NCBI GenBank assembly: GCA_016926755.1
Contig: JAFGNZ010000111.1
Span: forward strand, 1 to 55,212
DNA from: Myxococcaceae bacterium
Lineage (GTDB): Bacteria; Myxococcota; Myxococcia; Myxococcales; Myxococcaceae
Reading direction: 5' to 3'
DNA: 55,212 bases
The position numbers were made by a program, and so were the translations under genes. Below are positions 6,633-45,632 of this stretch, one piece after another. Numbering within the stretch: position 1 is the stretch's first letter; every line of letters begins with the position of its first letter. Under the pieces are notes generated by a model. That model did no database searches. It saw only the letters and a list, made by a program, of their open reading frames with translations, and was not told the DNA's origin.

Positions 6633-7573
6633 GCAGCACACCGCTCTCCCCGGCAGCCCTCGGCAGGGTGTACGCCGCGCTCTTGGTCCAGGTGCTCATC
6701 AGCGCCGGGACGTACCTGGCCGGAAAGCGGGCCATGGAGGAGCTGCCGCCCTCCACCACCATCCTCTGGCGCTTCCTGCTCAGCGGCGCGGTGTTCGCGC
6801 TGCTGCTGGCCTTCACGCCGGGGCCGAAGCTGCCGCCGCGCGCCGAGTGGCGCCGGGTGCTGTGGCTGGGGCTGCTGGCGGGGCCGGTGAACCAGCTCCT
6901 CTTCTTCAACGGCCTGGCGCGCACCCCGGCGGCGCATGGCGCGCTGCTGTACGCCTTGACGCCGCTCGGCGTGTACCTGACCAGCCTGCTTCGAGGCCAG
7001 GAGCGGGCCTCGGCGCGGGCGCTGGCGGGAATCATCACGGCCTTCGCGGGCGTGGCGGTGCTCCTGCTGGGGCGGGGGCTGGCCAGCGCCCAGGGCTCGC
7101 TGGGGGGGGATCTGCTCATCCTCGGGGCGGTGGTGGCGTGGGTGCTCTACACGACGGAGGGCCGCCCGTTCGCGTCGAGCCATGGCCCCATCCGCGCCAC
7201 GGCCTGGAGCATGCTGGCGGCGACGGTGCTCATGCTGCCGATGGCGCCCTTCGCGCTGCGGCCCGTCGAGACGCTGAACGCGAGCCTCACCGCGCAGGCC
7301 TGTGTGCTGTACGTGGCGCTGCTCACCTCCGTGGTGGCGTACCTGATCTGGTACTACGCGCTGTCCAAGGTGCCCGCGTCGAAGGTGGCCATCTTCTCCA
7401 ACCTGCAGCCGGTGGCCACGGCCATCGCCGCCTGGGCGCTGCTGGACGAGGCGCTGCACGGGGCGCTGGCGGTGGGGGGCGTGCTCGTCATTGCAGGTGT
7501 CCGGCTCACCCAGGGCGCCAGCGTGCAGCCCCCCGCAACACCCGCGGGGAGCCAGGGGCGCGGCGTCCGGTAG
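6629..7573 (+). CDS. EamA/DMT superfamily permease
   Basis: About 314 residues with ten predicted hydrophobic helices in two repeats, the drug/metabolite transporter pattern. Typical features are FLLSGAVFALLL, GVYLTSLL, GIITAFAGVAVLLLG and, in the second half, YALSKVPASKVAIFSNLQPV, which resembles the conserved EamA helix that ends in Glu/Pro. The GTG at 6629 overlaps the queG stop (GTGA), suggesting translational coupling; an in-frame ATG at 6605 inside queG is the alternative. Substrate not predictable. The tail beyond residue 300 is low complexity. Confidence 0.88.
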   Translation: MSSTPLSPAALGRVYAALLVQVLISAGTYLAGKRAMEELPPSTTILWRFLLSGAVFALLLAFTPGPKLPPRAEWRRVLWLGLLAGPVNQLLFFNGLARTPAAHGALLYALTPLGVYLTSLLRGQERASARALAGIITAFAGVAVLLLGRGLASAQGSLGGDLLILGAVVAWVLYTTEGRPFASSHGPIRATAWSMLAATVLMLPMAPFALRPVETLNASLTAQACVLYVALLTSVVAYLIWYYALSKVPASKVAIFSNLQPVATAIAAWALLDEALHGALAVGGVLVIAGVRLTQGASVQPPATPAGSQGRGVR

Positions 7574-29080: not shown

Positions 29081-31447
29081 CTACTCGAACTCAGCGTTGA
29101 AGTTCTCACTCGTGGAGGACGAGAAGGAGTGGTTGGCTCGGATGGTGATGATGCCGGGAACCGGCGGCGGCACTCCTCCGTCTGGCAGTTTCTGTTGCTG
29201 CGTCGTGGCGCCCTCCAGGCGGATGGTTCCCGTATTGCCGCCTGGCAGGAAAGAGAACTCGTTGACACGAACGCAGCGGGTGAGGACAGGAGAGGTCCCC
29301 GAGTCGGGCGGAGAGTCCTTGCCTGTGTCGCAGTTGGGACCGAGTGCGATGCCGCCGTCAGCCAGGGTGGTGCCTTCCCGGGTCTGCTGGGCAATGGCGA
29401 AGCCGCCATAGGCGAAGGCGTTCGCGTCATTGGGCTGCAGCGTGGCCTTGCCCCGGGTCCCCGACTTCGACACCGTGAAGCCCGCTCCATCCGTGGACAT
29501 CCGGTTGAAGTAGGCGTCGGACCAGCGGAAGTTCACGTCGAGGAGGCCGTTCACGGGCAGGAGGTAGCCATTGGGGGGTTGCGGCGGGCTGAGGGTGAAG
29601 TCCTGGACCAGGGCCCCCGTGTAGACGAGGTGGATGGCTCTCCAGATCTGGGTGTCGTTGTCCCAGCAGCCATTGGGCCCGTCCCACTTGTTGTTTCTCG
29701 TGCGCTGGGCCGTCGGGTTCGCGCAGTCGATGCGCTCGGTGTCGATGAACTCCTCACCCGAATCCCAGATGCCGTTGTCGTTGCGGTCGACCAGCGGCTC
29801 ACCCAGGTCGACGAACCACTCGCCTGGATCCCATCGGCCGTTCAGCTGTCCCGCGGTGGGGCCGTTGCCCGAGCCGTCGGCGAACTCCTCCTCGCCGGCG
29901 ACGACCGCGATGATCGTCACCGCCATGTCACGAGGGTTGCGGGCGGCCGGGTCGCTCGCGCTTCCCTCGAACCGCTCGCCTGGCCAGGGTGCGACGGCGT
30001 ACGGGGGGAAGCTGCCCGCGGTGTTGAAGATGGTGGTGGCCAGGCCCGTGTCCGCGGCGGGATTGGGGCCGGTCTGGACCTTGGAGTCGACCGGGCTGTT
30101 GATGGAGCCGGCCTCCGGATACCACTGAACGGAGGTGGCCAGGCCCACCGGGTTGCCGAAGCGGTCCACGAGTTTGGCGGTGCACGTCGTGTTGAGGGAC
30201 CGAGGGGGCGGGGTGGCGTGCAGCGCTCCCAGGTTCTTCTTGGTGCAGTCCACCAGCAGGCCTTCGTCAGAGGGTTTGCCACCCACGATGGGCGTGCCCG
30301 AGTGGGAGGTGGACACCTCGGGCGTCGAGCCGATCGTGGCAGTGACGGTGGCCTTGACGATCACGAGGCCTACCTGGTCGCCGGAGCGCAGCGTGGCAGT
30401 GGCGAGGCCCTGGGCGTTCGTCACCGCGGTCGGCGTGACGGACGCACCGCCAGCTCCGGACGCGGTGAAGGTGACCTCGATATCGGGCACGGGCTGCTGG
30501 CTGGCGTTGATGACCTTGAAGGAGATGGGGGTGGTCGTCTCACGCCCGGAGCTCTCGATCCCGAGCAGCGCCTTGGCGGAGCCCGTAACGTAGGAGATGG
30601 AGGAGACCGCCGTGAAGTTGATCTCCTTCGTTCCGGTACCATCTTCATGTGTGGCGGTGATCACTGCCTTCCCCGGCCCCATGTTGGAGACGTAGAGCGA
30701 GACCTGGGCCTTACCAGAGGCGTCCGTGGTCGCCTGTGCGGTCGTGGTTCCCGCGGCGGGTGTAAACGAGCCGAGCGTGGTGTCGAACATGACCTGAACT
30801 CCCGAGACCGCCGCGCCGTCGGCGAGGCGGGTCACCGTGGCGGTGACGAGGGTCTGATCACCGGTATTGGCCACCAGCAGGGGCTTGCTCGTCTCCACGA
30901 CAACCTTGAACGTGGCCGTTCCTCCATCTGGCAGGCCGCCGTCGGCGCCGCCGCCAGAGCCGCCATCAGCGCCGCCATCAGCGCCGCCATCCTTGCCGCC
31001 ATTCGTGCCACCATCGGAGCCACCGTCGGAGCCGCCGTCGGAGGCAGGGGGGCTCGAGCTGACTGCCACCGTGGTGCTCGCGGTCGTGGAGTTCCACGTG
31101 CCGTCGATGCGCACGTTGCCCGCACACTTCGGGTCCACGAGCTTGTTGCAGGTGAAGCTCGTGGGCGCCTTCCCGTTGGCAAGCGTCAGCGTCTCTTCCG
31201 CGGCGTTGTTGCCGAGCGCTCCCGCAGTCGCCTTCAGGGTGACGGTGCCCGTACCTGCCGTGCCATCGGCGTTGGTGGCGGTGACAGAGATCTGGGAGGA
31301 CTGGCCCTGATCATAGAGCTGCCGCGGGGTGGCCGTGATGAGGAGCTCGGGCTCCTCCTCCTCCGGCTTCTCGCCTCCGCCGCATGCGGCGACGATTCCC
31401 AGGGCCACAACCAGGGCGGCACCCAGGCGCCAAATCGGACGTTGCAT
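29081..31447 (-). CDS. Large Ig-like (Big) domain lipoprotein with Ca-loop segment
   Basis: 788 residues. Signal peptide ends in VAACGGG (lipobox). At least three bacterial Ig-like repeats carry the invasin/intimin-type pattern VTLKATAG and T..ATV..NAQGLATATL (roughly residues 35-400). A DGG-rich linker (about 135-170, repeats of DGGSDGG/ADGG) separates the first from the rest. In the second half, segments such as DRNDNGIWDSGEEFID resemble calcium-binding DxNxDGxxDxGE loops of dockerin/thrombospondin type. Expected on the cell surface. Divergent from the acyl-CoA dehydrogenase. Confidence 0.85.
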   Translation of the reverse strand: MQRPIWRLGAALVVALGIVAACGGGEKPEEEEPELLITATPRQLYDQGQSSQISVTATNADGTAGTGTVTLKATAGALGNNAAEETLTLANGKAPTSFTCNKLVDPKCAGNVRIDGTWNSTTASTTVAVSSSPPASDGGSDGGSDGGTNGGKDGGADGGADGGSGGGADGGLPDGGTATFKVVVETSKPLLVANTGDQTLVTATVTRLADGAAVSGVQVMFDTTLGSFTPAAGTTTAQATTDASGKAQVSLYVSNMGPGKAVITATHEDGTGTKEINFTAVSSISYVTGSAKALLGIESSGRETTTPISFKVINASQQPVPDIEVTFTASGAGGASVTPTAVTNAQGLATATLRSGDQVGLVIVKATVTATIGSTPEVSTSHSGTPIVGGKPSDEGLLVDCTKKNLGALHATPPPRSLNTTCTAKLVDRFGNPVGLATSVQWYPEAGSINSPVDSKVQTGPNPAADTGLATTIFNTAGSFPPYAVAPWPGERFEGSASDPAARNPRDMAVTIIAVVAGEEEFADGSGNGPTAGQLNGRWDPGEWFVDLGEPLVDRNDNGIWDSGEEFIDTERIDCANPTAQRTRNNKWDGPNGCWDNDTQIWRAIHLVYTGALVQDFTLSPPQPPNGYLLPVNGLLDVNFRWSDAYFNRMSTDGAGFTVSKSGTRGKATLQPNDANAFAYGGFAIAQQTREGTTLADGGIALGPNCDTGKDSPPDSGTSPVLTRCVRVNEFSFLPGGNTGTIRLEGATTQQQKLPDGGVPPPVPGIITIRANHSFSSSTSENFNAEFE

Positions 31448-33645: not shown

Positions 33646-34614
33646 ATGCCGATCGTTCTCATCGTCGCCGAGCAGCAGCCGGATGGGCACCTGCGCAAGG
33701 CCACCCTCAACGCCATCTCCGCGGGCCGCACGCTGGCGGAGAAGGCGGGCGCGGAGCTGCACCTGGCGCTGCTGTCCAAGGATCCCTCCAAGCTGGCCGA
33801 GGAGCTCAAGGTCCAGGGCGTCAAGGCGGTGCACACCGCCGCCGCGCCGGAGCTCGAGCACTACCTGGCCGAGGTGTACGCGCCCGTCATCGCCGGCCTG
33901 GTGCAGGAGCTGAAGGCCGATTACGTGGGCATGGCCTCCACCGCCATGGGCAAGGACCTGATGCCCCGCGTGGCCGCGCGCCTCAAGGCCGCCATGGCCA
34001 CGGACGTGATGGCCTTCAACGGCAGCGGGGCGGACATCTCCTTCACCCGGCCCATGTGGGCGGGCAACGTCTTCGCCGAGGTGAAGCTCACCACGCCGGT
34101 GAAGGTGTTCAGCGCGCGCGCCACCGAGTTCCCCGCCTCCACGGGCGGCCAGCCCGCGGGCGAGGTGAAGGCCTTCACCCCGAAGCTCGAGGCCTCCAAG
34201 ACGAAGTTCGTGGACTTCAAGGAGGTGAAGAGCGCTCGGCCGGAGCTGACCGAGGCGCGCGTGGTCGTCTCCGGCGGCCGCGGCACCAAGGGCGACTTCA
34301 AGGAGATCGAGGCGCTGGCCGACGAGCTGGGCGCCGCGGTGGGCGCCTCGCGCGCGGTGTGCGACGCGGGCTGGGTGCCGAACGACTTGCAGGTGGGCCA
34401 GACGGGCAAGGTGGTGGCCCCGCAGCTCTACATCGCCGCGGGCATCAGCGGCGCCATCCAGCACCTGGCCGGCATGAAGAGCTCGAAGACGATCGTCGCC
34501 ATCAACAAGGATCCCGAGGCCCCCATCTTCCAGGTGGCGGACTACGGCCTGGTGGCGGATCTCTTCAAGGTGCTGCCCGAGCTGCGGGAGGCCCTCCACA
34601 AGCTGAAGGAGTAG
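33646..34614 (+). CDS. etfA: Electron transfer flavoprotein alpha subunit
   Basis: 322 residues. N-terminal alpha/beta domain, then the FAD-binding C-terminal block: [90 protein letters not shown]. It binds the FAD of the ETF dimer. 39 bases after etfB, same transcript. Followed by a strong two-part hairpin. Confidence 0.97.
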
Positions 34615-34635
34615 GGCCCTCGGCCCGGACGCGCG

Positions 34636-34671
34636 GAGGGGCGGTGGCGAGTGATGCTCGCGCCGCCCCTC
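34636..34671. terminator. Strong two-part hairpin between convergent etfA and membrane protein genes
   Basis: GAGGGGCGG pairs with CCGCCCCTC (nine pairs) and, inside, GCGAG pairs with CTCGC. It fills the 69 bases between two facing stop codons. No U-tract on either side. Confidence 0.55.
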
Positions 34672-34683
34672 TGGCGTTGCGGG

Positions 34684-35250
34684 CTACAGGTTGATGTCCT
34701 CGCCGCCCTGGCCCTCCTCGCCGCCCTGGCCCTCCTCGCCGGCCTCATCGGGTGGGAGGATCTCGTCCGGGGGCGCCGGCTCATCCCCGGGAGGCAGCGC
34801 CCGCCCCGGCTGCGCGCCGCCCTCCATCTTGCCCGTCAGATCGATGGGAGTCCGGCCGGGCACCTCCACCTGGAGGACGTGGAAGGTCCACGCTTCCCCC
34901 ATCTTGGAGGCCTGCACGCGCAGGGCGCCCTTGGCCTTGGGGCCCTCCAGCGGGATGGTGAAGTCGGCGCTGCCCCTGCCGTTCTCCGTCTTCACCGAGC
35001 CCTGCAGCATGCCGGTGTCGATGGGCGAGCCCAGCGCCTCCTGCACCTCGGGATCCGCCATCGCCACCTGCACCGCCTCCACGTAGGCCGTGCTGCTCTT
35101 GATGGCGGAGCTGGCGGCGAAGAAGGTGAGGGCCCCCAGGCACCCGCAGGAGGCCAGGATGCCCAGGCACCCCACGGGGACCACCCACTTCCAGTTCCGA
35201 CTCCACCAGCCGCGCTGCGGCGCCATGTTGCCTTCCGGCGACGTGTTCAT
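34684..35250 (-). CDS. Single-pass membrane protein, Coa1-like
   Basis: 188 residues from ATG 35250. After a short cytoplasmic lead ([20 protein letters not shown]) there is one membrane helix, and then an outside domain with [49 protein letters not shown] and TFHVLQVEV. That build matches proteins annotated as Coa1-family cytochrome oxidase assembly factors; in bacteria the true role is not established. The acidic Pro/Glu/Gly tail repeats [15 protein letters not shown]. Convergent with etfA. Confidence 0.75.
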
Positions 35251-35454
35251 GGACCCTCCCAGGTCTCCGCCCACTCGAGAGGCTGGGCGCGGCCTCGTCA
35301 TATGCGGTCCCCGGCGTATCGCCCAAATCCTTGTTCGGGGAGCAGGCAGGGGGGCCAGCCTCTTGGTTCGGGTGGAGGGGAGCGGGTAGCATGGCCGCGT
35401 ACTCCGTGCCGGGGGGGCTCCCTGGCATTCCTTCCCGAATCTGGAGGCGAGCGG

Positions 35455-35766
35455 TTGACGGGTGCTGGCCAGGACGTGCTACGCGCCGTGCCCCGGCTGC
35501 ACCCGGAGGCGGGCCTGCAGCGCGTGAGAGGGAGCCTGCTGGCGGCGGGGCCGGACGACTTCCTGCACACGTTCGAGGATGGGGCGGGGGAGGTCTCCGA
35601 GGTGGCCGAGCGAATCCTGGAGCTGGTGGACGGCCGGCGGACGGTGGCGGACATCGTGGCGGTGCTGTGTGACGAATTCGAGGTGGAGCCTGAGGCGTGC
35701 CGTGAGGACACGGTGGCCTTCGTGAGGCTCCTCGTGGAGAAGAAGGTGCTGGTGCTCGGGCCGTGA
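35455..35766 (+). CDS. PqqD superfamily protein (RiPP recognition-element type)
   Basis: 103 residues from TTG 35455, with GGAGG 7-8 bases before it. The domain runs from LAAGPDDFLHTFEDGAGEVSEVAERILELVDG to TVADIVAVLCDEFEV...DTVAFVRLLVEKKVLVL, the winged-helix PqqD pattern in which the middle strand and third helix clamp the leader peptide of a RiPP precursor. The stop overlaps a GTG of the giant lipoprotein frame. It is the first gene of the 35455-43618 run that also holds a peptide gene with a leader-like KPYxxP motif. No modifying enzyme is fused to it. Confidence 0.8.
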   Translation: MTGAGQDVLRAVPRLHPEAGLQRVRGSLLAAGPDDFLHTFEDGAGEVSEVAERILELVDGRRTVADIVAVLCDEFEVEPEACREDTVAFVRLLVEKKVLVLGP

Positions 35767-35831
35767 AGGGCCGGGGCGCTCGCGCCGTGAACGGCGGGGC
35801 CGCCGGGGCCCGCCGAGAGGGTGAGAGACGT

Positions 35832-38800
35832 ATGCGCCGAGCGGTATCTCAGTGGCTGCTGATGGGCTTCGTGCTGGTGTGGGGCGCCTCCGGGTGCAAC
35901 TGCGGGGAGCCCCCCGTCGAGTCGGAGCTGACGGTGGCCTTCGACAGGCCCGAGGACGGGGCGCGGCTGGCGCTGGCGGATGACGCGGATCCGGCCACGG
36001 ACGGCTTCCAGTACGAGGTGGTGGCGCTGGCGCGCGACACGGCGGACCGGCCGGTGAAGCTGGCCAGCGCGAAGCTGGAGCTGCGGGTGCCCAGCGAGCA
36101 GACGTGGCAGCCGGGGCCGGAGGCCGTCATCGACGGGGGCACGGTGCGCTTCCCGGGCACGCTGCTGCAGCCGCGCACCAACGTGCTGCAGGTGACGGTG
36201 GTGGAGGAGGGCTCGCGGCGCACGGCCACCCAGCGCATCAGCGTGGCGGTGTCCACGGAGCCGCCGAGCGTGGACCTGACGCAGCCCGCGGAGGGCCAGG
36301 TGCTGCGCGAGGGGGACGACGCGGATCCAGACACGGCGGGCTACCAGCTGCGCTTCTCGGTGAAGAGCACGGGGCTGGCCGGGAAGGCGGGGACGATCTT
36401 CTGCGAGCAGGCGTGTGGCGTGCCCCCCACGGACTTCACCGTGAACAGCAGCGGGCTGACGCAGGTGTCGGTGACGCTGGATCCGTCCGCCGCGTGCGTG
36501 GCCCAGGAGGCCGCGTGCTACGCGGTGGTGCGCACCGGCAGCGGCACCCAGGATGTGCAGTCTGGCAAGCGCCGCATCACGCTGGACACGGTGGCGCCGC
36601 GCGTGGAGGTGAGCTCGCCCGTCGCGCCCGTGCCCTCGCAGACCTTCAAGGTGGAGGCGGTGGTGGGCTGCTGCGAGGACGGCTCGACGGCCACGCTGAC
36701 GCATGAGGGCGCGTCGCTGTCGGCCCGGGTGACGGGCGGCGTCGTGTCCTTCCCCGAAGTAAGGGCGTCGAGCGACGGGCAGTTCCCCTACATGCTGCGC
36801 ATCACGGACTCCGGGGGCAACGTCACGGAGAAGCTCATCCCGGTGCGGGTGGCCTCGACGCCCGCCACGCTGTCGCTGAACGTGCCGACCACCGTCACCA
36901 CGGACGCGGACAACAACCCCGCCAACGGCATCCAGGTCGACGCCACCGTGACGACGAGCGCCACCGATCCCGAGACGCAGATCGACTTCTACACGACCGT
37001 CACGTCCGAGCTGGGCAACCCCGTCCGGTTGGCGACGACGGCGGTGACAGGCGGGGGCCGCGCCGCCACGCTGCGAGTCTCGCTGGTCGAGGGCGGCACC
37101 AACACCGTGCGCGCCTGCGTCCGCAACCCCGCGCTGCCCGCCACCTGCCAGGCCCTGACGGTCAACGTCTCCACGGGGCGCCCCACCTGCCAGATCACCT
37201 CTCCGCTGGACGCGGACGTGTTCGGCGCCGCCGGCATCACGGCCCCGGTCGAGGTGGAGACGGACGCGGCCTCCGTGAAGGTCCGCCTGCTCCGCGAGGA
37301 CGGCAGCCTGGTCTCCTCGAATGATCCCGCCAGCAGCTCGGGGCTCACCTTCCTGGTGCCCGTCGCGCTGCCCGCCGAGGATGGCCCCTACCGCCTCGTG
37401 GCCGACTGCGGGGCGAGCGGCGTGAGCCAGCTGATCACGGTGGTGCGTGATGTGGCGCCTCCCAGCCTGGCGGTGGAGGTCTCCGGGGATGCGGGCGACG
37501 GGGTGCTCGGGCCGGCGACGCAGGACACCTCCACGCAGGCGGGCACGCAGGTGCGGGTGACCGCCCGCACCGAGCCCTTCACCGCCGTGAGGCTCACCGG
37601 CTGCGGAGCGGGGAACAGCTTCGACACCGTGGCCGATGCGACGGGCCTCGCCGTGCTGCGCGAGGTGTCCGTGCCTGCCTCCGGCGACTGCGCGCTCTCT
37701 ATCAGGGCCACGGATCTCGCTGGCAACGCAACCGACGTGAGCAAGCCGCTGGCGCTCGCCCTCACCCGAGGCGCCCTCTCCCTGGTGTCCCCGGCGGCGG
37801 ATCACGTGCTGGGGCTCTCGGACGGAGCGCCTGTCGGCGGTGGGGGGCTGACGCTGGACGTGAGGGTGGGGATCTCCGGCGGCGGCGCCGGGACGCTGAA
37901 GCTCTTCGTGGGGGCCAGCGAGGTGGGCTCGGTGGAGGTGGCGGCCGGTGACACGGAGAAGGTCTTCACCGGCGTGGCCCTGCGGGAGGGGGCCAACGTG
38001 GTGCGTGTCACCCTGAGCGGCGCGGCGGGGACTGCCGCGTGCGTGACGTCCCTGCTCACCGTGGACACCACTCCCAGCGCCGTCACGCTCGAGAACCCGG
38101 CGACCGCTTCCAGCTTCGGCCTGGTTGACGATCTCAGTGATGGCGCGCCCGGCATCCAGCGCACCCTGCGTTACTCGGTGAGCGCTGCCTCGGAGGGCGC
38201 GCGGGTGGACATCTGCTCCAGCAAGCCGCTCAAGCAGGGCGCCGCCCAGTGCCGGGACGGCTCGGACTTCTACACGCTGGCTTCGGACGTGGCGGCCTTC
38301 GTGTCCGACTTCAGCTTCCCGGACGGCCAGTACTCGATCAAGGCGGTGCTCGATGACGGCAGCTTCTCCTCCTCGCAGGAGGTGCCGCTGGTGGTGGACT
38401 CCGAGCGGCCGCGCGTCACCCGCGTCACCATCGAGGCAGACACCAACGGCGATGGTCAGCTCAGCCTCGCCGAGCAGCCCACGGGCGATCCCGCGCTCTT
38501 GGTGACCGTCGCGGGCCTGGAGGACGGCCGGAGCATCCGGGTGCGCGGTGCCGATGGAACGGTCTTCGGACAGGCCCTCGCCAGCGCGGGTGCCGCCCGG
38601 GTCGTGCTCTCCGGGCTGCCCAACCTGACGGAGGCCAGCTACAGCCTGACCGTGGTGGCCACTGACGGTGTGGGCAACAGCAACAACATCTCGGATCCGG
38701 CCCCGCTGGATCCGATCAACACGGAGGCCTTCCTCACGCTGCGCGTCGACCGCGCCGCGCCGACGCTCTCGGTCACCGCGCCCGGTAATCCCCTCCTCGG

Positions 38801-41669
38801 CCCCGCCGATGATGAGGATCTGGCGCAGGCGGGCTTCCAGGTCCGTCTCACCCTGACCACCAGCGCGGATGTAGGGACGGACGGGGTGGAGGCGACGCTC
38901 ATGCCCGGGGGAACCGTGCTGCGATGGACGCCCACCGAGCAGACGCATACCGTCTCCGAGCTGATCACGCTGCCAGCCTCCGGCGCTACGGTCCACGAGG
39001 TCCTCCTCAAGGCGACCGACAGGGCCGGCAACACGAACACTGCCAGTGCCTTCACGGTGGATCTCGAACCGCCGGGGCTCACGGTGACATCCCCGCAGGC
39101 TGGTGCGATCTATGACACCAACACCGTGCAGATGAGCGCCACTGTCACCGGGGCGGAGGGGGAGTTCGTGGAGGTTCGCCGCGCGCCGCCGGGAGGGCAG
39201 ATCGGGACGCTGGTGACCTCATTGAGGGTGGTGGGCGGGGTCGCGTCCGGCGCCGCTCCGCTGCCACGCGGCACTCACGATGTCATCTTCGAGGTGCGTG
39301 ACGCGGCGGGCAACCTCACCCGCCAGACGGTCTCCAACGTCCAGGTGATCTTCGACGGGTGTGATATTCGCTTCACGAAGCCGGTGGGGACGCCGGTGAC
39401 GCTCAACCAGCAGGACGACCTGGACCCGGGCACGGCGGATTTCCAGTACCGCGTGGAGGGCGAGGCACCTGTGTGCGCCGGGCGCCAGGTACGGCTGTAC
39501 CGGAATGCGGGGGCGACGCCTGAGGCCACCACCGTGGCAGACGCGGCGACCGGCGTGTTCGGCTTCGACGTGACGTTGCCGTTCGATCAGTCCACCACGC
39601 TGCGTGTCGAGATGGATGACGGGGCGGGACACCAGAACTCCGTGTCCGTGGAGCTGATCGTGGACATCTCGCCGCCCGTCTTCACCCAGGTGGTGCCGGC
39701 CGAGACGGTGCTCTTCTTCGTGGCGGACAGCAACGAGGCGCTCTTCTTGTTGCCGCCCACGCCCGGCTACGTTCGGGACCTCATGTCGGACGGAGATGCC
39801 GATGCGGAGCTCACCGCCTACGTCACCGGGGCCCAGTCAGTACGTGTCACGTACAACGGCACGGAGGTCACCACGCCGAGGCCGCCTGATGCGAATGGCA
39901 AGGTGACCTTGCCCATGATCCTGCCGCACAACACGACCGGGCCGTTGGTGCTCGCGGCGCGTGACGCGGCGGGCAACGAGGCGCGCCACACGATCAGCGC
40001 CACGGTGGACGTGCAGCCGCCGGCGCACCCCCTGCCGCAGGTGGCCCTGGCCCCTGGAGCCGAGCGCACCGCGACGGTGGACGTGACGTGGACGGCCGTG
40101 GGGGATGACGGGATGTCCGGCGTGCCGAGCGGCTATGACGTGCGCTGGGCGCATGAGGCGGTGCTGCTGGGGGGCATCACGGATGACGAGACGTTCTTCC
40201 GAGGGCGGGTGCAGCGGGGCTCGGGCTCGCTGCTGCCCGCCGGGAGCACGTCGTTCGTGCTCACGCCGCTGCCGCCCATGGAGAAGTACTCGATCCAGCT
40301 CCGCGCGCGAGACGAGGTGGGCAACTACAGCCGCCTCGCCCCCTCCCAGTCGCTGTCCAACATCCGCACCCGGGATGTGCTGGATCCAGGAGGCAACGGC
40401 AGCCACTTTGGCTTCCTCGTGGCCTCGAACGGGAACCTGGACGGCGTGGCCGGGGATGATCTGGCCATCGCGGACTACTCGGAGAACGGTGGTTCTGGAG
40501 CGGTGTACGTCTTCTCGGGCGGCGATGGGACGCCGCAAACGCTCGTGCCGCCGGCGGCCCAGACTGAGTCCTTCGGCTGGGACATGAGCATCGGCAACGT
40601 GGGGGATGCGGCGGGCGAGGGCAAGCCGGACCTGGTCGTGGGAGCGCCGGGCTGGTCCAGCGCCCGGGGTCGCGTCTTCCTCTACTTCGGACGGACCGGG
40701 GCGGGCGTCACGGGCGTGGACCCGACCCCCATCGAGCTGCGCGGCACGGCCAACGGCAATCGCTTCGGCATCGCTGCGCGCATCATCCAGGACATCAACC
40801 AGGACGGCTTGGGTGAGCTGGCCATCCCTGCCTCCAGCGAGAACGGCGCCGTGGGCAGGGTGTACATCTTCTTCGGGCGCAGCCGGGCCGCCTGGGAGGC
40901 CCTGCGGGTGGACGAGAGCACCGGGGTGGCCTGCACCGTGGCGACCACGGCCTGCATCGTCCCCACCTCGCGAGCGGACCGCGCCATCGACGGGGAGGAT
41001 GTGACCAGCTCCTTTGGCCGCTACAGGGGCCTGACGGGGCTGGGGGACATCACGGGGGATGGCGTCCCCGACTTCGGCATCCCGGCCTCCCGGGAGACGA
41101 TCAACCGCTACTACCTCTTCTCGGGTGGGGCCGTGCTTTCGTCCCCGGTCCCCACGGCCATCCCGGCCTCCTCGGCGCTCCAGCGCCTGCTCCAGCCTGT
41201 AGGCACGGAGCCCTCCAGCTTCAACGGCTTCGGCATGGCGGCCGTCGGCGGCCTGAACCTGATCGGCGGGGCGGGGCTGGACCTGGTGGTGAGCCGCGCC
41301 CGCGCGAACACCCTCTTCCTCTATGCCGATGGCGAGGCCTCGGGCTTCCCCAACCCTCCGGCGACGATCCTGGGTAGCGGGAACTTTGGCAACTCGCTCG
41401 CCTCGGGGGACATCAACCTGGACGGGAGGCCGGATCTGGTCGTGGGCACGGACCGGCTCGATCAGGGCTCGGCCTGGGTGTTCTACAACACCGCCACGGG
41501 CTTCGATCCCCTCACGGGCCAGTTCAACCAGGCCAACCTGGTTGGCAGCGGGGCGAAGGCCCTGGGCGTGAGCGTCGCGGTGGGGGACTTCAACGCGGAT
41601 GGCAAGCCGGACATCGCGGCGGGCGACAACCTCGATCCGATGGGTCGCCGGGTCCGGATCTGGTATTAG
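35832..41669 (+). CDS. Giant lipoprotein with Ig-like repeats and C-terminal FG-GAP repeats
   Basis: About 1945 residues from ATG 35832; a GTG at 35763 overlapping the PqqD stop is an alternative with a poor lead. Signal peptide ends WGASGC22 (lipobox). About residues 30-1440 are tandem Ig-like (Bacterial Ig) units with a repeated boundary motif, for example LADDADPATDGFQYEV, REGDDADPDTAGYQL, GPADDEDLAQAGFQV and NQQDDLDPGTADFQYRV. A fibronectin III-like unit follows, and the C-terminus is a set of FG-GAP (integrin beta-propeller) blades with Ca loops: DINQDGLGELAIPA, DITGDGVPDFGIPA, DINLDGRPDLVVG, DFNADGKPDIAAG. A surface or periplasmic adhesion-like protein. Confidence 0.88.
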   Translation: MRRAVSQWLLMGFVLVWGASGCNCGEPPVESELTVAFDRPEDGARLALADDADPATDGFQYEVVALARDTADRPVKLASAKLELRVPSEQTWQPGPEAVIDGGTVRFPGTLLQPRTNVLQVTVVEEGSRRTATQRISVAVSTEPPSVDLTQPAEGQVLREGDDADPDTAGYQLRFSVKSTGLAGKAGTIFCEQACGVPPTDFTVNSSGLTQVSVTLDPSAACVAQEAACYAVVRTGSGTQDVQSGKRRITLDTVAPRVEVSSPVAPVPSQTFKVEAVVGCCEDGSTATLTHEGASLSARVTGGVVSFPEVRASSDGQFPYMLRITDSGGNVTEKLIPVRVASTPATLSLNVPTTVTTDADNNPANGIQVDATVTTSATDPETQIDFYTTVTSELGNPVRLATTAVTGGGRAATLRVSLVEGGTNTVRACVRNPALPATCQALTVNVSTGRPTCQITSPLDADVFGAAGITAPVEVETDAASVKVRLLREDGSLVSSNDPASSSGLTFLVPVALPAEDGPYRLVADCGASGVSQLITVVRDVAPPSLAVEVSGDAGDGVLGPATQDTSTQAGTQVRVTARTEPFTAVRLTGCGAGNSFDTVADATGLAVLREVSVPASGDCALSIRATDLAGNATDVSKPLALALTRGALSLVSPAADHVLGLSDGAPVGGGGLTLDVRVGISGGGAGTLKLFVGASEVGSVEVAAGDTEKVFTGVALREGANVVRVTLSGAAGTAACVTSLLTVDTTPSAVTLENPATASSFGLVDDLSDGAPGIQRTLRYSVSAASEGARVDICSSKPLKQGAAQCRDGSDFYTLASDVAAFVSDFSFPDGQYSIKAVLDDGSFSSSQEVPLVVDSERPRVTRVTIEADTNGDGQLSLAEQPTGDPALLVTVAGLEDGRSIRVRGADGTVFGQALASAGAARVVLSGLPNLTEASYSLTVVATDGVGNSNNISDPAPLDPINTEAFLTLRVDRAAPTLSVTAPGNPLLGPADDEDLAQAGFQVRLTLTTSADVGTDGVEATLMPGGTVLRWTPTEQTHTVSELITLPASGATVHEVLLKATDRAGNTNTASAFTVDLEPPGLTVTSPQAGAIYDTNTVQMSATVTGAEGEFVEVRRAPPGGQIGTLVTSLRVVGGVASGAAPLPRGTHDVIFEVRDAAGNLTRQTVSNVQVIFDGCDIRFTKPVGTPVTLNQQDDLDPGTADFQYRVEGEAPVCAGRQVRLYRNAGATPEATTVADAATGVFGFDVTLPFDQSTTLRVEMDDGAGHQNSVSVELIVDISPPVFTQVVPAETVLFFVADSNEALFLLPPTPGYVRDLMSDGDADAELTAYVTGAQSVRVTYNGTEVTTPRPPDANGKVTLPMILPHNTTGPLVLAARDAAGNEARHTISATVDVQPPAHPLPQVALAPGAERTATVDVTWTAVGDDGMSGVPSGYDVRWAHEAVLLGGITDDETFFRGRVQRGSGSLLPAGSTSFVLTPLPPMEKYSIQLRARDEVGNYSRLAPSQSLSNIRTRDVLDPGGNGSHFGFLVASNGNLDGVAGDDLAIADYSENGGSGAVYVFSGGDGTPQTLVPPAAQTESFGWDMSIGNVGDAAGEGKPDLVVGAPGWSSARGRVFLYFGRTGAGVTGVDPTPIELRGTANGNRFGIAARIIQDINQDGLGELAIPASSENGAVGRVYIFFGRSRAAWEALRVDESTGVACTVATTACIVPTSRADRAIDGEDVTSSFGRYRGLTGLGDITGDGVPDFGIPASRETINRYYLFSGGAVLSSPVPTAIPASSALQRLLQPVGTEPSSFNGFGMAAVGGLNLIGGAGLDLVVSRARANTLFLYADGEASGFPNPPATILGSGNFGNSLASGDINLDGRPDLVVGTDRLDQGSAWVFYNTATGFDPLTGQFNQANLVGSGAKALGVSVAVGDFNADGKPDIAAGDNLDPMGRRVRIWY

Positions 41670-41691
41670 TAGGCTTGGAGGCAGGTGCTCG

Positions 41692-41844
41692 ATGGTGACC
41701 GAGGCCCAGAAGCCGAAGAAGAAGAAGCCCTACCGCAAGCCCGCGGTGCGCTCGGAGAAGATCCTCGTGGTGAACTTCTTCTCCACGGGGGGACAGCCCT
41801 GCGATCCGTTCTGCGACGGGCTCCCACCCATGCCGGATGCTTGA
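41692..41844 (+). CDS. Candidate RiPP precursor peptide
   Basis: 50 residues, GGAGG 10 bases upstream. The N-terminal half is basic with KPYRKPAVRSEKILVVNFF; the KPYxxPxxxxE pattern is that of leader peptides bound by PqqD-type recognition domains. The C-terminal half, from about Ser31, is FSTGGQPCDPFCDGLPPMP, with C37 and C41 and several Gly/Pro, like a core peptide. The next gene begins inside its last codons (8-base overlap), so it is co-translated with an HPr-kinase-like protein. No signal peptide. Being a precursor is an inference from size, motif and neighbours. Confidence 0.6.
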   Translation: MVTEAQKPKKKKPYRKPAVRSEKILVVNFFSTGGQPCDPFCDGLPPMPDA

Positions 41845-42640
41845 GGTCCTCGCGGGAAGGAGCGTCCTCCAGGTGGACCCGGCGCTCGTTCCCCTGCTCG
41901 CTCAGCGGTGCGTCCTCTCCCACCTGACGCCTCCGAAGAGCCCGGCCGAGGGGGGCCGGCTGACCTTGAGCCTGGCGCCCCCGGAGGCGGAGGGCTCCAG
42001 GTCGGGGATCCCCCTCGATGCGCAGCGCCCGGAGTGGGGCACCTTCGTCCTCCAGGAGGAGCGGGTGCTCGCGCGGATTGCGCCGGATCCCTTCGCCGCG
42101 GAGGCGGCGCTGCGGGCCGCGTTGCTGGTGGCCTTCCTGCGCCAGGGAGGCGTGCTGCTGCACGCCGCGGGAGTGGCCTTCTCCACGGGGGCGCTCGTCA
42201 TCGTGGGCCCGAGCGGCGCCGGCAAGTCCACGCTCGCCCGGTCCGCGGTGGCCGCCGGAGGAGCGCTGCTCTCGGACGAGACGGTGGGGCTGCTCCCGTC
42301 AGGCCTCGTCCATGGGAGCCCCTTTCGCTCGGATCCGGACATGGTCCCCGTGCTCGCGGAGGCCCGGCTGGTCCGGCTCGCCGTGGTGGTGAAGGGCGCG
42401 TTCGAGGCCACCGAGCCCCTGCCCGCGGCGGAGGCCGCGCGGGTGGTGCTCCAGCAGGCCTACCGGCCTCCTCCGGGGCTGGTGGGGCTGGGAGAGCTGG
42501 TGGCCCGGGTGGGCGTCTGGGTGGAGCGTGTCGGCGTGCACCGCTTCATCTGCCGCAAGGATCCGGCCGCGGGCGTGTTCGCCCGTGAGTGGGTGGAGCA
42601 GGCTCCGGTGGATCCTGGCCCGCTGCCGAGGGCATCGTGA
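41837..42640 (+). CDS. HPr-kinase-like P-loop protein
   Basis: 267 residues. Walker A GPSGAGKST (residues 124-132, K130) is preceded by GGVLLHAAGVAF and followed by SDET (146-149), the order seen in HprK-related proteins, where the Asp helps catalysis. No HPr protein or PTS gene is in the window, so it is probably not a sugar-PTS regulator. HprK-like kinases also occur in lasso-peptide clusters (paeninodin type), where they phosphorylate the peptide. The start overlaps the peptide gene stop by 8 bases; 12 bases separate it from the next gene. Confidence 0.75.
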   Translation: MLEVLAGRSVLQVDPALVPLLAQRCVLSHLTPPKSPAEGGRLTLSLAPPEAEGSRSGIPLDAQRPEWGTFVLQEERVLARIAPDPFAAEAALRAALLVAFLRQGGVLLHAAGVAFSTGALVIVGPSGAGKSTLARSAVAAGGALLSDETVGLLPSGLVHGSPFRSDPDMVPVLAEARLVRLAVVVKGAFEATEPLPAAEAARVVLQQAYRPPPGLVGLGELVARVGVWVERVGVHRFICRKDPAAGVFAREWVEQAPVDPGPLPRAS

Positions 42641-42652
42641 GGGAAGGGCGCG

Positions 42653-43618
42653 ATGACCGGTAGACACCCCGCCGATCTCGTGGACCTCGTCGAGGCGACG
42701 CCGACAGGCCGCCAGCTCTGGCTGCGAGGCGCTGGGCGCAGCCTGTATCCCCTGCTGCGCAGCGGGGACTCGGTCCGGGTGTTGCGCTGCGCGCCAGAGG
42801 CGCTCGCCCGGGGAGATGTGGCGCTCGTGAGGGTGGGGCGGCAGCTCATCGCGCACGTGGTGCTCTCCGCCCGGCCGCTGGTGACCGCCTCCCTGCTCGG
42901 CGGGAAGGATCCGGTGGGAGTGCCGCTCGGGCGCATCACCGCGCTGCGCCGCGGGGCGTGGATCCTCCCGCTGCCCCGGCTGGCGCGCCCCACGCTCTTC
43001 CTGGGGCAGCGCCTGCTCTCCGGGCTGTGGACCCGGCCCCGAGCCCGCGGGCTCTTCCGCCAGCTGCGGGACTTCACGGTCGCCGGGTGGTCCCGGCCAC
43101 TGCGGCGGCGGATGCTCGGGCGGCCCGAGGTGCGGCTGCTGCGGGAGGGGGACCTGGACGCGCTCCTCGTCTTCGCGGGAGAGCAGCTCCTGGTGCCGTC
43201 GGCCTTCCTGCGCCAGCAGCTCCTGGGGCGCTGGGCGCGCGAGAGCGGCGCGCTGGGCGCGGCGGCAGGGGCCTTCGCCAAGCGCGGGCGGATGTGCGGC
43301 TTTGCCTACCTGGACGACTACCGCGAGGAGGGGCTGGCGCTGGAGGGGCTGTGGGTGCGCTCGCTGGTGGTGGCGCCGCGGGCTCGGCGGATGGGGGTGG
43401 CCTACCAGCTCATCGGCTGCCTCGTGGAGGAGGCCCGGCGGCAGGGGGCGGACCGCGTCTTCGCGGACATCGACGAGGACAACTTCGCCTCCCTGAGGAC
43501 CTTCCGCAGGGCGGGGTTCCAGGCCTCCTCCTCCGAGCTCACCCAGCGCGTCAACGCCGAGTGGAGTGCCTCGGGCGGCGTCAAACCCCTGGTCGTCCTG
43601 GAGCGGGCCGTGGAGTGA
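42653..43618 (+). CDS. S26-type peptidase-like domain fused to GNAT acetyltransferase
   Basis: 321 residues, two domains. Residues about 20-95 resemble the signal-peptidase fold: WLRGAGRSLYPLLRSGDSVRV (S30) and RGDVALVRVGRQLIAHVV (H68), the Ser-His arrangement of SipW/S26B peptidases, in place of the Ser-Lys of LepB; no membrane helix precedes S30. From about residue 125 a GNAT domain follows, with acetyl-CoA loop VVAPRARRMGVAYQLIG and NFASLRTFRRAGFQ. A plausible job is removing a leader and acetylating the new N-terminus (inference). It follows the HPr-kinase-like gene by 12 bases. Confidence 0.75.
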   Translation: MTGRHPADLVDLVEATPTGRQLWLRGAGRSLYPLLRSGDSVRVLRCAPEALARGDVALVRVGRQLIAHVVLSARPLVTASLLGGKDPVGVPLGRITALRRGAWILPLPRLARPTLFLGQRLLSGLWTRPRARGLFRQLRDFTVAGWSRPLRRRMLGRPEVRLLREGDLDALLVFAGEQLLVPSAFLRQQLLGRWARESGALGAAAGAFAKRGRMCGFAYLDDYREEGLALEGLWVRSLVVAPRARRMGVAYQLIGCLVEEARRQGADRVFADIDEDNFASLRTFRRAGFQASSSELTQRVNAEWSASGGVKPLVVLERAVE

Positions 43619-43630
43619 TACATCCCCTCC

Positions 43631-44545
43631 ATGGCCGACACCGCGTCCTCCCTCGAACGGGCCCGTTTCCAGGCGGATGGAGTGCTGGTCCTCCTCACCG
43701 TCATCTGGGGCACCACCTTCGTGGTGGTGAAGGACGCGCTGGGCCATGGCGATGCGTTCACGTTCCTCGCGCTGCGCTTCGCCGTGGGCGCGGGGGTGCT
43801 GAGCCTGAGGGCCGGGCGCCGGCTGCTCTCCCCGGGAGTGCTGCGCCGGGGCGCCGTGCTGGGGGGCTTCCTGTTCGCGGGATTTGCCCTGCAGACGGTG
43901 GGGCTGGAGGACACCACGCCCTCGCGCTCCGCGTTCATCACGGGGCTGTACGTGCTGCTGGTTCCGCTGGTGGTGCTGGCGCTCTTCCGGCGGGTGCCGC
44001 GCGTGTCCTCGCTGCTGGGCGTGGTGCTCTCGGCGGTGGGGCTCTACTACCTCACGCGGGCGGAGGTGGGCGCGGCCCAGGGCATCTCCCGAGGGGACCT
44101 GCTCACGCTGGGGTGCGCCGTGGCGTACGCCTTTCATATCGCCTTCACGGAGCGGTATGCGCCGAAGGAGGGCGTGGAGGCGCTGGTGGCGGTGCAGTTG
44201 TGGGGGGTGGCGCTGCTGTCGGTGCTGTGCCTTCCCTTCGTGGAGGCGCGGGTGGAGTGGGCGCCGGCCTTCCTCGGGGCCGTGCTCTTCTGCGGCGTGG
44301 TGGCCAGCGCGGTGGCGCTCAGCATGCAGATGTGGGCCCAGGCGCGAACCTCGGCCGTGCGCGCGGCCATCGTCTACTCACTGGAGCCGGTGTTCGCCGG
44401 GGCCTTCTCGGTGCTGCTGGGGTACGAGCGGCTCGGGGGGCGCGAGTGGGTGGGCGGGGGCCTCATCATCCTCGGCGTGCTGGTGTCGGAGCTGGGCTCG
44501 GGCCTGTGGGATCGCTGGCGAGGCCAGGCCGTGCCCCAGGCTTGA
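43631..44545 (+). CDS. EamA/DMT superfamily permease
   Basis: 304 residues, about ten membrane helices. Typical EamA pattern: VLVLLTVIWGTTFVVVKDAL, FAGFALQTVGLEDTTPSRSAFITGLYVLLVPL, and near the end IVYSLEPVFAGAFSVLLGYERLGGREWVGGGLIILGV, with the conserved Glu-Pro. 12 bases after the peptidase-GNAT gene, so it may share its transcript; whether it exports the peptide product is not known and would be unusual for this family. Confidence 0.92.
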   Translation: MADTASSLERARFQADGVLVLLTVIWGTTFVVVKDALGHGDAFTFLALRFAVGAGVLSLRAGRRLLSPGVLRRGAVLGGFLFAGFALQTVGLEDTTPSRSAFITGLYVLLVPLVVLALFRRVPRVSSLLGVVLSAVGLYYLTRAEVGAAQGISRGDLLTLGCAVAYAFHIAFTERYAPKEGVEALVAVQLWGVALLSVLCLPFVEARVEWAPAFLGAVLFCGVVASAVALSMQMWAQARTSAVRAAIVYSLEPVFAGAFSVLLGYERLGGREWVGGGLIILGVLVSELGSGLWDRWRGQAVPQA

Positions 44546-44654
44546 GGAGGCCGCTCACGGGAGCGAGGGCTGCTCGGGTGCTGGGACGACGGGCAGGCGG
44601 GCCCTACATGGAAGACACACAGGCTCCGAGGCGCGCTATAGGAGGTGCTTCCGC

Positions 44655-45632
44655 ATGAGTGTCGAGCTGAGGCGAAACGGACTGCACCTGACGGGGACCC
44701 CGCTGTCGCTGGACGCGACGCGCAAGACGCCCCTGTCGTTCGTCAGCCACGGCCATACGGACCACATCGCGCGCCACGAGGCCACCATCTCCACGGCGGC
44801 GACGCTGCGCTTCATGACGCACCGGTTGGGGCCGGTGAGCGCCCCGCTGGCGGTGCCGTACAACCAGATCTTCGAGCTGGGCCCGCTGTCACTGGAGCTG
44901 CTGCCGGCGGGGCACATCCTGGGGAGCGCCCAGCTGCGCGTCATCCGCTCGGATGGGCGGCGCATCGTCTACACGGGGGACCTGAACCTGGTGCCCTCGC
45001 TCACGGCGGAGCCCGCGCAGGTGGCGGAGTGCGACGTGCTCGTCATCGAGGCCACGTTCGGCCACCCGCGCTACCGCTTCCCTCCCAAGGAGGAGGTGCT
45101 GGGGCAGGTGGAGGCGTGGGTGCGCGAGCAGCTCGAGCGCGGGGCCGTCCCGGTGCTGCTCGGCTACCCGCTGGGCAAGAGCCAGGAGGCGATGAAGTAC
45201 CTCTCGGGGCGGGGCTTCGGCCTGGTGGCGCATGCATCCATCTTCGAGGTGACCGGGCTGTACGGGGAGCTGGGGGTGCCCATCGAGCGGGTGCGGCGCT
45301 TCGACGGCAAGGTGGAGCCGGGGGAGGTGCTCTTCTTCCCGCCGCACCAGTCGCGTGGGGGAGGGCTGTCGGGGCTGTGGCCGAGGGCTACGGCGGTGCT
45401 GACGGGCTGGGCGGTGGATCCAGGCGCGGCATACCGCTACGGGGCACAGGTGGCGTTCCCGTTGTCCGACCATGCGGACTGTCCATCGCTGGTGAAGTAC
45501 GTGAAGGCGACGGGGGCGCGCGAGGTGATGACGCACCACGGGTTCAAGGAGGAGCTGGCCCAGGTGCTGCGGGCTGAAGGCATCGACGCGCGGGCGTTGG
45601 GTGGGAAGCCGCAGCAGCTCGCGCTGTTCTGA
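44655..45632 (+). CDS. MBL-fold exonuclease-like metal-dependent hydrolase
   Basis: 325 residues; GGAGG 9 bases before ATG 44655. Metallo-beta-lactamase fold of the CPSF/exonuclease group: SHGHTDHIARH (metal ligands), PAGHILGSAQLRV, VYTGDLNL, LGYPLGKSQEAMKYL, FPLSDHADC and a late His in MTHHGF. This matches the MBL-fold exonucleases often found with ATP-dependent ligases and helicases in bacterial DNA repair. No ligase is next to it here. The closing pattern ALGGKPQQLALF is typical of the group. Confidence 0.85.
   Translation: MSVELRRNGLHLTGTPLSLDATRKTPLSFVSHGHTDHIARHEATISTAATLRFMTHRLGPVSAPLAVPYNQIFELGPLSLELLPAGHILGSAQLRVIRSDGRRIVYTGDLNLVPSLTAEPAQVAECDVLVIEATFGHPRYRFPPKEEVLGQVEAWVREQLERGAVPVLLGYPLGKSQEAMKYLSGRGFGLVAHASIFEVTGLYGELGVPIERVRRFDGKVEPGEVLFFPPHQSRGGGLSGLWPRATAVLTGWAVDPGAAYRYGAQVAFPLSDHADCPSLVKYVKATGAREVMTHHGFKEELAQVLRAEGIDARALGGKPQQLALF

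Follow-up and report, generated by a model that had tools for sequence, protein, structure and literature searches.

What pathway is encoded by five consecutive genes of a myxobacterium that specify a PqqD protein, a giant lipoprotein, a 50-residue peptide, a kinase and a peptidase fused to an acetyltransferase? The genes lie in a 55,212-nucleotide stretch from a Myxococcaceae bacterium (GenBank assembly GCA_016926755.1, contig JAFGNZ010000111.1), here called the window, which is an entire contig (C183) of a 9.6-Mb genome. The locus probably encodes a pathway for a ribosomally synthesized and post-translationally modified peptide (RiPP) that resembles the linear polyphosphorylated peptide (LPP) system of the Paenibacillus alginolyticus lpp cluster, and whose phosphopeptide would act with the giant lipoprotein at the surface. 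Loci, genomes, genera and families are given by our own labels (L, G, g and f numbers), and published systems are described from their reports (LPP, PMC13381572; bsf, PMC10368454). The five genes are as follows.

35455..35766, + strand: PqqD-family RiPP recognition element (RRE) protein, 103 aa, TTG start; Pfam PqqD 1.3e-13.
35832..41669, + strand: giant lipoprotein, 1945 aa from ATG, within a frame open from a GTG at 35763 (35763-41669); Pfam FG-GAP and Big_13.
41692..41844, + strand: putative precursor peptide, 50 aa; leader motif K12-P-Y14-x-x-P17-x-V19-x-S21, with C37 and C41 in the tail.
41837..42640, + strand: predicted HprK-like kinase, 267 aa; HprK_rel_A match below cut-off, residue pattern.
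42653..43618, + strand: predicted two-domain protein, an S24/S26-type peptidase (about residues 1-145) fused to a GNAT acetyltransferase (about 156-321), from alignment, model and Pfam.

The original prediction placed these five genes on one strand in this order, with an 8-base overlap of the peptide and kinase genes and a 12-base gap between the kinase and peptidase-GNAT genes, and its coordinates are confirmed. It staked a RiPP-like unit on recurrence of the five genes together in relatives and on purifying selection on the peptide frame, and both were found.

Recurrence was read in a class sample of 145 genomes. Eighty neighbourhoods and the window gave 81 loci, which were picked from search hits, so counts over them are not frequencies in nature. 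Matches were found for the peptidase-GNAT fusion in 84 genomes (E<=1e-6), for PqqD in 50 (1e-6), for the 50-aa peptide in 14 (0.01, some weak) and for the kinase in 89, many of these being remote paralogues. PqqD is present in 44 of the 81 loci and all 44 carry the giant lipoprotein; the same stretch also holds the kinase in 37 and the peptidase in 25. Of all the partners, the giant lipoprotein is found most constantly with this PqqD gene and with the peptide, and the earlier view that so large a surface protein is unexpected here is not borne out. The order PqqD, lipoprotein, peptide, kinase and peptidase occurs in all seven sampled genomes of the window's genus and in further genera. Hosts include Archangium lansinium (G129), Archangium violaceum Cb vi76 (G117), Citreicoccus inhibens (G002) and Myxococcales metagenome-assembled genomes (MAGs).

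The set extends into the wider phylum. PqqD profile matches, many of them remote, were found in 112 of 195 phylum genomes, the class sample included. Twenty regions were read in the wider phylum: 10 have PqqD with a giant lipoprotein on the same strand, and seven of the 10 also have the kinase (once on the opposite strand). A motif peptide follows the lipoprotein in 6 of 8 regions scanned; none was found in L213, L223, L224 and L228. In other families, a radical SAM gene lies beside the PqqD, giant lipoprotein and kinase set (L215, L221, L224 and L226), with a SPASM domain in L221 and L226.

The lipoprotein most likely starts at the ATG at 35832 (MRRAVSQWLL...GASGC, with a lipobox) rather than at the GTG at 35763. 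It has FG-GAP (1e-20), Big_13 (4.9e-18) and weak fn3 matches, Ig-like domains, and a C-terminal propeller, at about residues 1500-1945, that resembles integrin alpha (integrin alpha-6 7ceb, E 6.5e-8). Among 42 relatives, 1481-3023 aa in length, a lipobox was detected by script in 36, with two of the 36 calls misplaced and the true lipobox visible; three of the six missed show one by eye.

The peptide is a real frame with a constant leader and a variable tail, because of the placement of its micro-open reading frame (micro-ORF), its tail diversity and its ratios of nonsynonymous to synonymous change (pN/pS). A frame of 45-65 aa with [Y/W]-x-x-P-x-[VIL] lies directly after the lipoprotein gene in 23 of 23 first-batch cassettes; the next gene is that of the kinase in 22 and, in L080, that of the peptidase. 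Over all 44 loci, a micro-ORF with the leader motif is found at the lipoprotein stop in 42, versus 99 of 1717 random anchors (5.8%), which supports the leader-bearing precursor first proposed for the window. The motif pattern was drawn from the first-batch cassettes and was recovered in 18 of 19 loci outside its definition. The two misses are L083, a spurious lipoprotein match, and L091, which carries a family peptide that the pattern does not catch. When near-identical peptides were entered once, 37 remained, with Lys or Arg two residues before the Tyr in 34 and Ser or Thr at Y+7 in 33. Tails have 2-8 Cys in most of the 37 and none in two. Families f4 and f11 have Cys-poor tails that end in Tyr-Gly/Phe plus a basic Pro-rich stretch. 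A second core type, with the same leader and a Cys-poor Tyr-Gly/Phe and basic Pro-rich end, was seen in L100, L107, L108, L215, L216 and L225. Values of pN/pS are 0.05-0.56 over 13 peptide pairs within g1/g19 or within g17.

Ser or Thr lies at most two residues from the first Cys in 27 of 35 Cys-bearing peptides, versus 13.7 expected from shuffled tails. This residue seems a likelier phosphosite candidate than the Ser/Thr at Y+7, because the phosphate of LPP and of bsf, a phosphorylated lasso cluster of Bradymonas sediminis, sits on core Ser3.

The PqqD protein resembles the discrete RRE of LPP. In addition to the Pfam match, its profile search of the PDB reached TbiB1 (5v1u, 4e-9), PbaB1 (9x90, 2.9e-6) and LppB (9x8z, 1.1e-3). 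In LppB, D70, ahead of F74, bonds the leader Tyr (PMC13381572). D85 and F89 of the window protein are spaced like this Tyr-binding Asp and pocket Phe, and the acid four residues ahead of the pocket Phe is Asp in 40 of 44 PqqDs and Glu in 3, with the pattern absent in one.

The kinase has a GPSGAGKST loop, a His 15 residues before the loop and Asp-Glu 17 after the loop Lys. Across 48 kinases, Asp-Glu is found in 48 and His in 45, a pattern as in BsfK, where the second acid is Asp instead of Glu (PMC10368454). The match to HprK_rel_A (HprK-related kinase A, NCBIfam TIGR04352) has an E-value of 2.7e-8 and 33 bits, below the 200-bit cut-off, and a PDB sequence search returned chiefly generic P-loop matches. 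Residue pattern and weak family match together point to a predicted HprK-like kinase of the kind used by LPP.

In the last protein, the GNAT half is matched by Pfam (5.4e-12). The peptidase half matches Pfam S24 at E 0.27, below cut-off; 21 of 30 aligned sequences, the window's among them, reach Peptidase_S24 when E values up to 1 are allowed, the best being 1.8e-5. S30 is invariant, and H68 and D86 are kept in >=90% of the 30 aligned rows. A PDB sequence search with the peptidase half gave no usable match. This half was modelled separately because a fold search with the whole fusion saw just the GNAT half. The model (mean pLDDT, the predicted local distance difference test score, 78) has the LexA/UmuD/SipA/SpsB fold of S24/S26 peptidases with a Foldseek probability of 1.00, a best E of 3e-3 and no match below 1e-3. 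Fold and residues are those of a predicted SpI/SipW-like Ser-His-Asp peptidase, as in LPP.

Genomes that lack PqqD, lipoprotein, peptide and kinase still hold the fused peptidase-GNAT. Ser and His are both retained in 35 of 36 cassette genomes (the remaining frame starts after the Ser region) versus 10 of 41 genomes without a cassette, a set in which the neighbourhood was read for 17 and absence elsewhere rests on the PqqD search. G013 was left out of the 41 (misassigned, frame unaligned) and two Citreicoccus paralogues were counted apart. This difference suggests that the peptidase acts on the cassette's product and that the GNAT half has a separate use. The Citreicoccus peptidase-GNAT paralogues (L059, 5001-5873, - strand; L061, 13501-14376, + strand) have no cassette around them, and neither has the catalytic Ser or His (dyad kept in 0 of 2).

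Parts of the cassette have been exchanged together. The window lipoprotein is a mosaic: numbered from the GTG, its break lies close to residue 300, at about 36660. In 100-residue blocks, identity over residues 1-300 is 61-85% to the own-genus group (five genomes) and 57-67% to Archangium (three genomes); past residue 300, the averages are about 45% for the own group and about 54% for those Archangium. Over the whole gene, kinase identity is 63-67% to those Archangium versus 41-43% to the own group, and peptidase-GNAT identity is 74-80% to the own group versus 45% to Archangium. The last five-sixths of the lipoprotein, the peptide and the kinase are Archangium-like, and PqqD and the peptidase are native. 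In trees, the window kinase and lipoprotein residues 300-1968 group with Archangium with support of 100, PqqD and lipoprotein residues 31-300 group with the own genus, and the opposite groupings are rejected (p 7e-5 and 9e-39 for own-genus grouping, 0.018 and 8e-4 for Archangium grouping, approximately unbiased test values that are optimistic because the groups were suggested by the identities). A second exchange is seen in G096 and G107, of the genus Archangium, which have Citreicoccus-like lipoprotein and kinase and a PqqD that sits with Archangium with weak support.

Distances were compared across 16 loci, with L060, a near copy, left out. Lipoprotein, kinase and peptide distances co-vary (r 0.84-0.97), and PqqD less so (0.54-0.56). 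The lipoprotein-kinase correlation is 0.97, and 0.96 with flanking-gene distance removed; the lipoprotein-PqqD correlation is 0.56, and 0.30 with flanking-gene distance removed. This suggests, without proof, that lipoprotein, peptide and kinase belong together, as fits a unit of specificity.

A mechanism can be proposed by analogy with LPP and bsf (PMC13381572, PMC10368454). PqqD would bind the 50-aa precursor at its Y-x-x-P-x-V leader and present it to two enzymes. The HprK-like kinase would phosphorylate a Ser/Thr near the leader-core border with RRE assistance, and the SipW-like Ser-His-Asp peptidase would then remove the leader (PMC13381572, PMC10368454). The fused GNAT may acetylate the freshly exposed N-terminus. 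The peptide would leave the cell, and the mature Cys-bearing phosphopeptide may act with the giant lipoprotein at the cell surface as ligand, cargo or bound cofactor.

A broader proposal is doubtful at present: that these are phylum-wide surface recognition systems of Myxococcota, in which the integrin-like propeller of a giant lipoprotein would have a phosphorylated, perhaps acetylated, RiPP as its dedicated ligand or bound cofactor. Lipoprotein, peptide and kinase would then travel together as one block of alleles, as a locus for self/non-self or prey recognition would be expected to. If true, this would be, to our knowledge, the first RiPP made for the cell's own surface protein instead of for release.

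Comparison of the sequences shows a conserved gene set and order, the leader motif, the catalytic residues, purifying selection and the joint exchange of lipoprotein, peptide and kinase. Several points weigh against a surface-acting LPP-like pathway. The observations include no product, phosphate or cleavage. No ABC exporter was found among the eight neighbour genes scanned, and the rest of the LPP leader consensus (HQ, FET) is not in the peptides. The window peptide against three others has pN/pS of 0.56-0.76, a weaker constraint. Nine of the 20 wider-phylum regions are without such a lipoprotein (two of them are a second locus type) and L222 is ambiguous. Joint exchange could be physical linkage alone, the p values of the tree tests are optimistic, and the PqqD tree branches are moderately supported. 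Decay of the peptidase, with the two Citreicoccus paralogues counted as cassette-less rows, amounts to four cassette and six dyad changes; these give 2-4 pairs that are independent, and the sign test on them is not significant (median p 0.5). The dyad is kept without a cassette in one clade (G012, G014, G030, G042, G055, G060 and G077) and also in G075, G083 and G105. Finally, the peptidase is on a different contig from PqqD in 12 of 36 cassette genomes, several of which also have the kinase elsewhere.

Four other explanations were weighed. In a toxin-immunity or predation system, a released, modified peptide would harm other cells, the lipoprotein would be the producer's binding or protection protein, and allele swaps would reflect rivalry. 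This would fit a constant leader that carries variable tails, the exchange seen for lipoprotein, peptide and kinase, and a patchy presence across the family. It is nevertheless unlikely: the eight scanned neighbours include no ABC exporter, and at 1481-3023 aa the lipoproteins are much bigger than familiar immunity proteins.

The lack of an ABC exporter among the eight scanned neighbours would suit a regulatory phosphopeptide, a cytoplasmic switch that is phosphorylated, then degraded, and controls lipoprotein synthesis or export while it stays inside the cell. The peptide also remains beside the lipoprotein even where kinase and peptidase lie elsewhere. Tails that are hypervariable and often rich in Cys, on a leader that stays constant, suit a product better, however, and the radical SAM genes beside four related loci fit peptide modification, so we regard such a switch as quite improbable.

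A lasso pathway with its cyclase and B2 peptidase encoded elsewhere is very improbable. A YxxPx[L/V] leader and an RRE are common to lasso pathways, in which HprK-like kinases also occur (PMC13381572, PMC10368454). Against this, the peptidase present is of a different class; Transglut_core3 (the B2 family) is unmatched in the window genome, with weak matches in four of seven genus genomes, one just above cut-off; and no cyclase was found among the eight neighbours scanned, a family that was not searched genome-wide. The peptides have no common Thr(-2)-x-Gly followed 7-9 residues later by an acid; only the window peptide could be read in this way (T32-G33-G34...D42). A lasso pathway acting in trans is disfavoured on these grounds: no B2 match in the genome, no cyclase among the neighbours scanned and no shared core pattern.

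That five unrelated genes are neighbours by chance has almost no probability and is rejected: the peptidase-GNAT gene does persist by itself in two large genera (41 genomes of g4 and g6), but different genera and families hold to one gene order, the four genes for PqqD, lipoprotein, peptide and kinase are jointly absent between the same flanking genes in 17 of 17 such neighbourhoods read, no PqqD of this type occurs in the other 24 cassette-less genomes, and both the micro-ORF frequency (42/44 versus 5.8% of anchors) and the lipoprotein at 44/44 PqqD loci speak against it. The reading as an LPP-like pathway coupled to the giant lipoprotein is retained.

The cassette is flanked upstream by etf genes and a Coa1-like gene (opposite strand) and downstream by an EamA transporter gene; this nearby transporter gene is retained also at neighbourhoods without the cassette. 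A second lipoprotein-like frame with a Ser/Gly/Asp-rich stretch was read by eye 4 kb upstream (29081-31447, - strand). No Rfam family reached its gathering score over 34600-44700.

A second LPP-like locus type was found in L213 (3350-8789, - strand) and L214 (2784-8087, + strand). It encodes an S24-type peptidase, a PqqD, a protein of ~1020 aa that is secreted-looking with a PQQ-like propeller, and a kinase. In L214, a YEPPAV...C...C peptide (7037-7279) overlaps the end of the propeller gene ahead of the kinase; no peptide was found in L213.

HprK-related kinase A (TIGR04352) genes sit beside a PqqD-like gene. In Rhizobiales records (mostly Mesorhizobium; L159-L174, L177, L179 and L181), the gene after a PqqD gene encodes an HprK-like kinase, and profile search found neither giant lipoprotein nor motif peptide. 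Three gammaproteobacterial MAG loci (L175, L176 and L180) encode an HprK-like kinase, a KPWTPPRLET peptide and PqqD. Read by eye, these are probably phosphorylated lasso clusters, because the L175 frame between peptide and PqqD resembles asparagine synthetase.

Among known systems, LPP is the closest comparison. Its kinase attaches several phosphates to core Ser3, and an RRE-dependent SipW-like peptidase (LppS, residues S29, H68 and D93) removes the leader, which has the motif YxxPxVLxHQxIxFETxxS (PMC13381572). LPP and the window have in common a discrete RRE, an HprK-like kinase, an SpI/SipW-like Ser-His-Asp peptidase, a [Y/W]xxPx[V/L] leader in which the second residue ahead of the Tyr is basic, variable C-termini, and a core set without a lasso cyclase. 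The peptides also fit the LPP leader form [Y/W]xxPx[L/V/I/F/A]. LPP has in addition an NTP-transferase and an MsbA-like ABC exporter, neither of which was found among the eight neighbours scanned; peculiar to the window are the giant Ig/FG-GAP lipoprotein, the fusion of a GNAT to the peptidase, the Cys-bearing core and the myxobacterial host. Two NTP_transf_5 (PF14907) proteins are encoded in the same genome (G000) on contig C144 (16461-17192 and 32068-32808), not on the cassette's contig. By analogy, the window system works like LPP; it is not filed as a member because the NTP-transferase, the exporter and the remaining consensus are lacking. The RiPP-like unit of the original prediction (RRE, precursor, kinase and maturation peptidase) is conserved in relatives and stands, and its statement that the locus fits no known RiPP class gives way to the match with the LPP set.

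In the bsf cluster, the HprK-like kinase phosphorylates core Ser3 with RRE help (PMC10368454). RRE, HprK-like kinase and, for the leader, YxxPxL are shared with the window, whereas bsf alone has a nucleotidyltransferase, an ABC transporter and, for lasso formation, a cyclase and a B2 leader peptidase; no lasso cyclase, B2 peptidase or NTP-transferase was found among the eight neighbour genes scanned at the window locus. Paeninodin-type lasso peptides (PbaB1, 9x90) share the RRE fold, leader-binding mode and HprK-like kinase, and differ in WxxP leaders, a lasso cyclase and a phosphate on the C-terminal Ser (PMC13381572, PMC10368454).

No account of the window system was found in open-licence PMC literature, where FG-GAP with PqqD was met only in the bsf paper and the papers met on myxobacterial RiPPs with PqqD concern ortho-tyrosine macrocycles, and the main text of PMC13381572 has no Myxo-, lipoprotein or FG-GAP wording. 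LPP was restricted to Bacillota per its authors in 2026 (PMC13381572), and its role was unknown; here, LPP-type machinery appears carried into another phylum and given a constant partner protein, and the role of these phosphopeptides is therefore testable in culturable myxobacteria. The bsf cluster has an FG-GAP repeat protein at its border that was deemed presumably uninvolved (PMC10368454), and the comparison suggests that this protein merits re-examination.

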